Virus record (IMG/VR): IMGVR_UViG_3300047384_000197
Location: 1 to 23,894 of that record
Reading direction: 5' to 3' (one strand)
From: a virus
Length of the DNA: 23,894 nt
In this document: piece by piece, positions 1 through 1,630 of the stretch
Position numbering within the stretch: position 1 is the stretch's first letter
How the letters are laid out: each line of letters begins with the position of its first letter
Made by a program: the position numbers and the translations under genes
The notes under the pieces: generated by a model
Told to the model about the DNA's origin: nothing
Seen by the model: only the letters and a program-made list of their open reading frames with translations
The model's database searches: none

Positions 1-567
1 AGAGTCTGTAGTTGGGCTATAGAAACACTTGTCATCTTCTGTATGGTTAAGTGTTAATGGCTTCTCTCTGTCAAAGTATTCGTTCACAATTTCTTCTGCT
101 CTCTCGTTAGGAGTAAAGTCAATCACGTCAACGTCTGATGATAGTGGCTCGATACCCTCTATCTGTGCGATGTTGAATACTCTATATACTCTCAAGCCAA
201 AGATTTTCTTGTATCTTTTGTTGCTAAGATCGATCTTCCTTGTGTCCTTGACGAATTTGCCTGTCTTAGTGTCAAGGTAGCTTACACTATAGAAATGTAC
301 TTCTGTAGATTTACTACCCTTGATAATTCTACCACCATTGGATGATGCTTGTTTAAAGGTCATCCATTGGTTATGCTCCCAATTATTGCGTCTACACTCA
401 AAGTGTAGGAAGAACACGTTGAATCCTGTATACAATCTCTTTGTTATCCTATTCATAGGTTGATTGAATTCCCCTGCTTTGAATGGCTTGAACCATTCCA
501 TACCATGTTCCTTCAATCCATCTATTACTCTCTCGTTGATGCTGTCTATAATCTCTTGATTTTTCAT
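1..567 (-). CDS. ArdC-like antirestriction / ssDNA-binding protein, N-terminal domain (partial)
   Basis: The frame opens at ATG 567-565 and stays open to the window edge, so the 189 residues seen are the N-terminal part only. They fit the ArdC N-terminal domain (PF08401 type): a WFKPF segment (residues 25-29), PMNR..KRLYTGFN (37-50), WMTFKQAS..GG.I.KGSKST (68-88) and VYRVFNIAQIEGIE (127-140), each matching a conserved block of that family. In plasmids ArdC binds single-stranded DNA and protects incoming DNA from restriction. The C-terminal zinc-metallopeptidase half found in many members would lie beyond position 1 and cannot be checked. It is the last visible gene of a minus-strand run (959-777, 764-579, 567-1) downstream of the structured RNA. 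Early expression as a defence against host restriction is inferred from family and position. Confidence 0.8.
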   Translation of the reverse strand, partial: MKNQEIIDSINERVIDGLKEHGMEWFKPFKAGEFNQPMNRITKRLYTGFNVFFLHFECRRNNWEHNQWMTFKQASSNGGRIIKGSKSTEVHFYSVSYLDTKTGKFVKDTRKIDLSNKRYKKIFGLRVYRVFNIAQIEGIEPLSSDVDVIDFTPNERAEEIVNEYFDREKPLTLNHTEDDKCFYSPTTDS

Positions 568-776: not shown

Positions 777-959
777 TTAGTTTAATTTTGTTTTTTTATC
801 GTGTTGAATTGCATCTTTTATAACTAAGCACAAGACAAAAATACCGAAAGGCATCATATACAAAGCAGCTTCGTTACTTGTTGCAACAAATAAGATTAAA
901 ATAATAAGGTTTAATAAAATCAAAATTGTAATAGCGAAATTGTAAGTGAATTTTGTCAT
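777..959 (-). CDS. small two-TM membrane protein (60 aa)
   Basis: Sixty residues from ATG 959-957. The frame is open further upstream to 1037, but the ATG at 959 follows an A-rich leader with a run of eight A typical of Bacteroidota starts, and the upstream extension (RHKSRAEETINQTKK) looks like untranslated leader. The protein has a Lys/Thr N-terminus, a first hydrophobic segment (about residues 8-26, ITILILLNLIILILF), a second (about 35-50, MPFGIFVLCLVI), and a charged Lys-rich tail. No family recognised. It is the first gene after the structured RNA and probably shares its promoter, since no TAnnTTTG box lies between 1040 and 960 on this strand. Possible roles such as superinfection exclusion are speculation. 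Confidence 0.6.
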   Translation of the reverse strand: MTKFTYNFAITILILLNLIILILFVATSNEAALYMMPFGIFVLCLVIKDAIQHDKKTKLN

Positions 960-1041
960 TGTAGTGTTTTTTTTGGTTTGATTGATAGTTTCCTCTGCTC
1001 TGCTTTTATGTCGACTTGCAACGACCATTGGTAGCATTAAA

Positions 1042-1064
1042 GGGAGTACATAAAATGCACCCCC
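1042..1064 (-). terminator. strong 10-bp hairpin at the 3' end of the structured RNA
   Basis: On the minus strand GGGGGTGCAT (1064-1055) and ATGTACTCCC (1051-1042) form an uninterrupted 10-bp stem with two G-U pairs and a TTT loop, followed by TTTAAT. The short U run makes it a weak or leaky terminator, or a 3'-end stabilising hairpin, which would fit some read-through into the downstream genes. Confidence 0.45.
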
Positions 1065-1072
1065 ATCGAATC

Positions 1073-1121
1073 AAAAAAATGTATGTTGTCATTACTCACG
1101 CAACAACATTACAAATGCGTG
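1073..1121 (-). promoter_or_regulatory. two mutually exclusive hairpins followed by a U7 tract (attenuator-like)
   Basis: On the minus strand CACGCA (1121-1116) pairs perfectly with TGCGTG (1102-1097), while ATGTTGT (1109-1103) pairs perfectly with ACAACAT (1089-1083). The two helices overlap and cannot both form. The second is followed after three bases by seven T (1079-1073), a weak intrinsic-terminator layout. This could decide whether transcription stops at the end of the RNA or continues into the genes at 959-1. The regulatory reading is inference. Confidence 0.4.
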
Positions 1122-1598
1122 TTGTTCATTTCACACTTGTTCTTACTCATTGTACTTCATTGCTTACAACTTGCAATACCAAGCCCTTGATGAACTTTCC
1201 CATATTAGTCGGTACGGATTTCTTAAATCCCCTATGGTGCTTTACCTAACTTGTAACGATAGCCTATTGGTATATCCAAGCCCATCTGGTTGTCGGCGAT
1301 GGTTTCCGTCCAGTTGTTCGATACTGGCAAACGCTGATTGAATTTTTGCTTTAATGTCTGTCTGTTGGCAATGCAACTCGTTACATCATTACTAAGGCTT
1401 ATCATCCTCAATCAAGCTAAGGTGTACTCTGTACTGATATGCTATCTCAACAATCCGAAGATACTCGATAGTCAGATGCTACTCTAAGGCTTGTGTGTTG
1501 GTCTTATGCTATCCGTATGGAGTGCCAACGCCTATGCTGAACGCTATATCTGAATCAGTAAGTGAAAGAACGAACAATGCTTTGATTCATTGTTGGGA

Positions 1599-1630
1599 CA
1601 AATATACGAACTAATTTTAATACGTGTCAA
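1599..1630 (-). promoter_or_regulatory. strong Bacteroidota-type promoter for the structured RNA
   Basis: Read on the minus strand, TTGACA (1630-1625) is followed, 21 nt after its TTG, by TATATTTG (1606-1599), a full match to TAnnTTTG. The expected start, 5-6 nt downstream, falls at about 1594, which is exactly the first base of the 7-bp hairpin of the RNA. It is the only promoter in the window with both a perfect -7 box and a perfect TTGACA-like -33 box. Confidence 0.75.

Follow-up and report, generated by a model that had tools for sequence, protein, structure and literature searches.

A candidate accessory phage RNA with an rRNA-type boxA at its start and a predicted twister ribozyme at its 3' end

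On the minus strand of a 23.9-kb phage fragment (hereafter the window, meaning the whole stretch of DNA that was analysed), we identified what is probably an accessory early phage gene, which would yield an extensively folded noncoding RNA of about 556 nt, set free by a twister ribozyme. On balance, this RNA also seems to represent a new class of large RNA unrelated to GOLLD, ROOL and OLE, organized as an optional start-to-ribozyme cassette that would depend on host rRNA antitermination to be made and on the twister to be released. The initial annotation of the region had proposed a new large structured phage RNA with its own strong promoter, a proposal borne out by approximately 20 other phage contigs carrying it, by heavy covariation and by the lack of any Rfam match except the twister. 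Judged by these comparisons, the RNA appears to be real and conserved. The same annotation had missed both the twister and the boxA. The window itself encodes a terminase, a portal and an SU10-like capsid protein (profile matches). Its terminase is nearest to those of a podovirus from Manatee Spring and of Maribacter, Flavobacterium and Cellulophaga phages, and the host is therefore likely to be of Flavobacteriia type; it is also likely to be marine.

Extent, conservation and fold of the RNA

The open reading frame list contained no long minus-strand frame between 1594 and 1042, and indels in the alignment of homologues were frequent and did not occur in threes. A coding role was rejected on these grounds, and the region stands as noncoding, as first proposed. 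The promoter with both boxes that had been predicted upstream (TTGACA-18-TATATT(TG), 11/12 matches) is conserved in the homologues, and the same type of promoter box precedes Bacteroidota rRNA operons. The hairpin predicted at the start was likewise upheld, with hairpins of different sequence occupying the same place in most homologues (e.g. L018, L038 and L023). The features of the locus are listed in Table 1.

Table 1. Positions of the RNA, its predicted control elements and the genes behind it in the window
Feature	Position	Strand	Details
Promoter, Bacteroidota-type	1599..1630	(-)	TTGACA 1630-1625; TATATTTG 1606-1599
5' hairpin AACAAUG...CAUUGUU	1573..1594	(-)	At putative transcription start, ~1594
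rRNA-type boxA, CGUUCUUUCACUUACUG	1556..1572	(-)	GTTC(A/T)TT then ACATA-TG in nearly all homologues
5' structured domain	1419..1555	(-)	Variable; includes covariation-counted helix CUAUC/GAUAG
Type-A core, helices H1-H5	1197..1334	(-)	Most conserved part
3' domain	1124..1195	(-)	Closed by H6 (1195-1190 with 1129-1124); holds H7-H9, shortened in window
Hairpin and pseudoknot	1083..1121	(-)	CACGCA/UGCGUG (1121-1116 with 1102-1097); AUGUUGU/ACAACAU (1109-1103 with 1089-1083); covariation-counted
Conserved GAUUCGAUGGG, then 3' hairpin	1042..1072	(-)	Hairpin 1064-1055 with 1051-1042
Twister-P1-type self-cleaving ribozyme (predicted)	988..1044	(-)	Predicted cut between 1039 and 1038
First downstream ORF	777..959	(-)	60 aa, hydrophobic; start codon 79 nt past predicted cut
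Third downstream ORF	1..567	(-)	ArdC N-terminal-domain antirestriction-like; runs off window; Pfam ArdcN E 1.1e-20; phrog_7245

Homologues were sought by IMG/VR scans with neighbouring proteins and conserved DNA patterns. The approximately 20 further phage contigs shared one layout, comprising a Bacteroidota promoter (TTG...TAnnTTTG), a 5' hairpin, an rRNA-type boxA, a modular folded core and a 3' hairpin. By BLAST, the window aligned to L018 over 712 columns at 75% and to L021 over 733 columns at 70%. Two core types were apparent. Type A comprised the window, L018, L021, L026, L031, L033, L036, L038, L039, L041, L023 and L050, and type B comprised L034, L035, L037, L040, L043, L045 and L046. 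Type B displayed a hairpin with the conserved loop CAUACGAUAAG, whose stem was seen by eye to vary on both sides among contigs. Among phages, the 5' part, the core and the 3' hairpin have been swapped like modules, with the promoter, the boxA and nearly always the ribozyme remaining constant. Further candidates (L042, L025, L027, L029, L030, L047-L049 and L051) were rejected as members, their pattern matches being due to chance or to coding sequence. No homologue was found among named phages by blastn and no copy in bacterial genomes by DNA pattern, where exact patterns can miss diverged copies. An earlier description of this RNA was not found in the open-access text of the papers searched.

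Folding energy alone is weak evidence for structure here (z = -1.75 on the minus strand, with 5/100 shuffles as good, and -1.03 on the plus strand); the comparative evidence is strong. When 12 type-A members were aligned by sequence alone with MAFFT and helices were chosen by inspection, 96.2% of cells in the proposed pairs were paired and two-sided changes affected 31/76 pairs (78 cells), figures that overstate independent events because the structure was picked on the very sequences counted and the alignment was drawn from related phages. Shuffle controls gave two-sided changes in 13.4 +/- 2.2 pairs and 22.2 cells, whilst slid controls, in which the partner was moved by 1-3 columns, were 29-39% paired with 0-7 two-sided pairs. 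The gap between the proposed pairs and the slid controls is very large despite this relatedness. The best supported elements were H1 (CCAGU/ACUGG), H2 (CCAUC/GAUGG), H3, H6, H8, H9 and H10, together with a pseudoknot in which the H10 loop pairs with a strand further downstream; H6, which pairs GUUCAU with AUGAAC in the window, covaries across homologues. A covariance model of the core (R2, built with the window sequence included) matched the window at E 8.7e-40 and had no match outside the type-A family.

These comparisons bear unevenly on the fold first drawn for the region. The several further helices proposed there exist and are supported by the alignment of homologues, and the 3' hairpin is present at 1064-1042. 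Covariation among homologues, to which the initial annotation had looked for support, was found, though not in the long-range closing helix (1571-1562 with 1134-1124, continued by 1561-1557 with 1147-1143). That helix was not supported, being 69.6% paired across 12 homologues compared with 68.6% in shuffles; the near-invariant boxA (GUUCUUU.AC) makes up its 5' strand, and the strand on its 3' side takes part in the covarying H6. The C(UUCG)G-capped hairpin can be seen in the window, but only there, as the loop at that place varies among homologues.

A scan against all 4227 Rfam families gave no match to the window RNA at curated thresholds. GOLLD, ROOL, OLE and HEARO, the families to which membership had been left open, were unmatched at E up to 10 in the window and up to 0.5 in five homologues, and GOLLD was found in none of the nine related contigs searched; membership was thus undetectable in all four, with the twister as the only match. 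By this measure the RNA appears to form a family without a curated relative. ROOL is similarly large and ornate and derives from phage or prophage (PMC12286853), but it has no Rfam match to the window RNA, and one published account of ROOL makes no mention of a self-cleaving ribozyme. Two other candidate identities were rejected: a tmRNA or tRNA, for which ARAGORN and Rfam were negative in the window, and an IscB/HEARO-type guide RNA, considered on account of a nearby HNH gene whose product is only 139 aa and which is divergent from the RNA, with HEARO unmatched.

The promoter-proximal boxA and its occurrence in other phages

Shortly past the promoter, the homologues carry GTTC(A/T)TT followed by ACATA(C/T)TG, which reads ACTTACTG in the window and in one of the two in L034. 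In L034, L040, L045 and L046, the sequence GTTCATTGACATATTG is identical over 16 nt to the 16S-23S spacer of Flavobacterium limnophilum. Records of a plasmid collection that contain rRNA operons supplied eight Bacteroidota rRNA leaders; GTTCTTT was present in six of them, mostly 36-90 nt past a TTTGCA promoter element, and this exact word was not found in the Flavobacterium and Chryseobacterium leaders of the set. The window has a host-type rrn boxA match, GTTCTTT, close behind its promoter. The E. coli boxA is a recruitment site for NusB/S10 and, in reporters, shields long untranslated transcripts from Rho (PMC4807359). Compared with boxA of rrn leaders and spacers (and of lambda nut), the phage element shares GTTCTTT with the Bacteroidota leaders and GTTCATTGACATATTG with the Flavobacterium spacer; it differs in that the rrn element precedes rRNA, whereas the phage element precedes an untranslated phage RNA, on which it would putatively act.

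When all viral contigs were scanned blind for TTTGCA-N15-45-CGTTCWTTNACATANTG, 13 matched. Five belonged to the window RNA family, two carried GOLLD RNAs and one a tRNA and tmRNA array; the remainder were four small-ORF leaders and one chance match within a gene. The array (L064, 228-1173 minus), headed by a boxA promoter, consists of phage tRNAs and a permuted tmRNA, with a second GTTCTTTAACATATTC inside it. The GOLLD RNAs, which served as a positive control (L068, 1587-700 minus, E 4e-46; L071, 1223-300 minus, E 3e-43), lie in Bacteroidota-type phage contigs and display a TTTGCA promoter and then an rRNA-type boxA at their start, possibly a general rule for making GOLLD. GOLLD (RF02032) and the window RNA are thus alike in being large, structured, phage-borne, of unknown function and, in L068 and L071, in their promoter-boxA layout, but they share no sequence or structure match. 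GOLLD is often located near tRNA islands (PMC12286853), whereas no tRNA was found in the RNA-bearing contigs searched. The ends also differ, as GOLLD in L068 terminates by eye in a hairpin and T-run and the window RNA in a ribozyme.

Leaders with boxA but without a large RNA were observed ahead of small phage ORFs in L067, L069 and L072. The closest named relative, L061 (MW202828), likewise has a promoter, the boxA GTTCTTTGACATATGG and a noncoding leader of ~265 nt before its first early ORF (43480-43867), in which neither core nor twister was detected. Given such leaders, it may be the operon, and not the RNA, that the boxA serves.

The predicted twister-type ribozyme and the 3' end

Infernal placed a match to Rfam RF03160 (twister type P1) at 1043-992 of the window (E 4.3e-07, 40.6 bits) and at the same place in L026, L031, L035, L036 and L040 (E 8e-07 to 5.5e-06). 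All twister matches (40.6-44.7 bits) score below the Rfam curated cut-off of 67.2, and the twister is therefore named by its anatomy. P1, P2, P4, the pseudoknots T1 and T2 and the U-A cleavage site are shared with RF03160; the P3/P5 extension is absent, L2 has ACC for GCC and the score is under the cut-off. Across 11 distinct sequences, 99.4% of cells in P1, P2, P4 and T1 were paired with compensatory changes in each, T1 covarying between G-C and A-U. The U-A cleavage dinucleotide and the loop bases CAAG and GAG were invariant in 11/11. The T2 pseudoknot joins L2 to L4 (PMC5408937); it consists of A-U and C-G, invariant in the 11 sequences, and of G-C/C-G in the Rfam consensus and in L045/L046, which amounts to a two-sided change. 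A family model (R1) matched the window at 988-1044 and, weakly (E 0.075-0.4), L045/L046 exactly at the expected position.

The predicted cut would yield an RNA of ~556 nt if transcription starts at 1594. The initial annotation had ended the RNA simply with its 10-bp hairpin; the predicted twister, at 1044-988 and so just outside the interval then considered, displaces the hairpin as the element that would set the 3' end. No intrinsic terminator was found between the RNA and the genes in the window. Two homologues, L050 and L023, were without a twister. In its place, L050 (3390-3543) has an element of ~154 nt that folds as a cloverleaf with long arms, the acceptor GGGAAU/AUUCCC, the T-loop UUCGAUU and the end ACUA, which neither ARAGORN nor Rfam called as a tRNA; in L023 this element is cut short. 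A cut of this cloverleaf by RNase P, if it occurs, would again define the 3' end of the RNA. In the window (1064-1040) and in many relatives, the last strand of the 3' hairpin shares bases with the beginning of twister P1; once released by the cut, this strand could pair again and so make cleavage one-way.

The reason for the gene associations of self-cleaving ribozymes in bacteria, twisters included, has been described as unknown (PMC10085705). Here, the putative ribozyme lies at a fixed place, the terminus of a large RNA, with a job that can be checked, namely to make the 3' end of that RNA and free the mRNA behind it. If this is correct, a bacterial twister gains a concrete biological role.

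Empty sites and alternative explanations

Four sister contigs (L010, L011, L014 and L022) share the neighbourhood but not the RNA, TTTGCA being followed at once by ACATCAATCA..ATG. Comparison of L041 with L022 defined the missing block. To the left of the promoter end, -1122..-586 of L041 corresponds to -500..+8 of L022 at 68%, and to the right of the ribozyme, +52..+247 corresponds to +8..+206 at 89%. The promoter and first gene are the same in both, and the additional 638 nt of L041 begin at the transcription start and finish where twister P1 ends. Moreover, genes that lie behind the ribozyme in L026 and L033 take second or third place in L011 and L014, which do not have the RNA. Since RNA-less relatives keep the promoter and genes, the RNA is evidently dispensable for the operon, and the absence of exactly this start-to-ribozyme block in sister phages favours an accessory, free-acting RNA over a cis-acting leader. 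It looks like an optional RNA tool for early in infection.

The most economical reading of these data is a released, free-acting early RNA made in the manner of rRNA. Host RNA polymerase would start at the Bacteroidota promoter, and the hairpin and rRNA-type boxA in the first ~40 nt would load NusB/S10 for antitermination, letting the long untranslated RNA escape Rho as rRNA does. The RNA would then fold in modules (5' domain, type A or B core, and 3' domain with pseudoknot), and the 3' twister would cut co-transcriptionally to free it with a defined 3' end, separate from the downstream early mRNA. We infer that the freed RNA is stable and acts in trans, candidate roles being a GOLLD/ROOL-like scaffold or oligomer, a decoy and a counter-defence RNA. 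Lambda nut and HK022 put RNA are examples of RNA that modifies RNA polymerase in cis, and the whole element may be conceived as such a leader of the early operon, in which boxA and folds act on the polymerase and the twister merely removes the leader. Consistent with this are the rrn-type boxA near the start, the boxA leaders of L061 and some other phage operons that do not have the window RNA, and the position of the RNA always ahead of early ORFs. We nonetheless consider a cis leader unlikely. In L010, L011, L014 and L022, an equivalent promoter serves the same operon although boxA and RNA are both absent; only tens of nucleotides are required for antitermination, yet structural selection extends over several hundred; and the same boxA arrangement is present ahead of GOLLD and tRNA genes. 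Such a leader accounts for the boxA, but leaves unexplained how large the RNA is, why it covaries and why sister phages do without it.

The overlap of the 3' hairpin with P1 means that the two could compete, as would suit an allosteric ribozyme or riboswitch in which the large RNA senses a ligand or protein and controls twister cleavage and hence the first downstream gene. This is improbable, as the downstream genes are unrelated among phages, unlike those of typical riboswitches, and the twister is retained when core types A and B are swapped. Circular RNA replicons make use of twister, and the boundaries of the insertion are the transcription start and the ribozyme end, both of which would be expected of a selfish element spreading as a start-to-ribozyme cassette, e.g. 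through an RNA or circular intermediate. However, each unit has one ribozyme, no convincing second copy was found in any locus searched, the genomic place is always the same and ordinary homologous exchange explains presence and absence, making such an element very improbable. A divergent member of GOLLD or ROOL would fit the similar size, the phage-borne location and the promoter-boxA start of GOLLD in L068 and L071, but it is hardly credible given that GOLLD is easily found where present, and that the relaxed Rfam searches and the RNA-bearing contigs searched gave neither a family match nor a tRNA. For work on the function of the RNA, the natural empty sites provide controls that already exist. 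With this family, a large phage RNA that is backed by covariation and has no curated relatives joins those known, and the boxA start held in common with GOLLD suggests a shared rule for phage production of long untranslated RNAs; if true, large phage RNAs in general, GOLLD included, may borrow the rRNA boxA.

The ORFs that follow the ribozyme vary among phages, with start codons 73-96 nt past the start of a TTTAA motif in every locus. In the window, the first encodes perhaps a small membrane protein and had no Pfam or PHROG match. An antirestriction-like gene had been noted downstream of the RNA; an ArdC-like gene is indeed present, as the third ORF rather than the next. Upstream of the RNA, the window has a second noncoding stretch (1640-2040) with repeats such as GCATACCAAAA. 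A block at 1964-2060, ahead of a divergent gene at 2034, is conserved and is kept in relatives both with and without the RNA.
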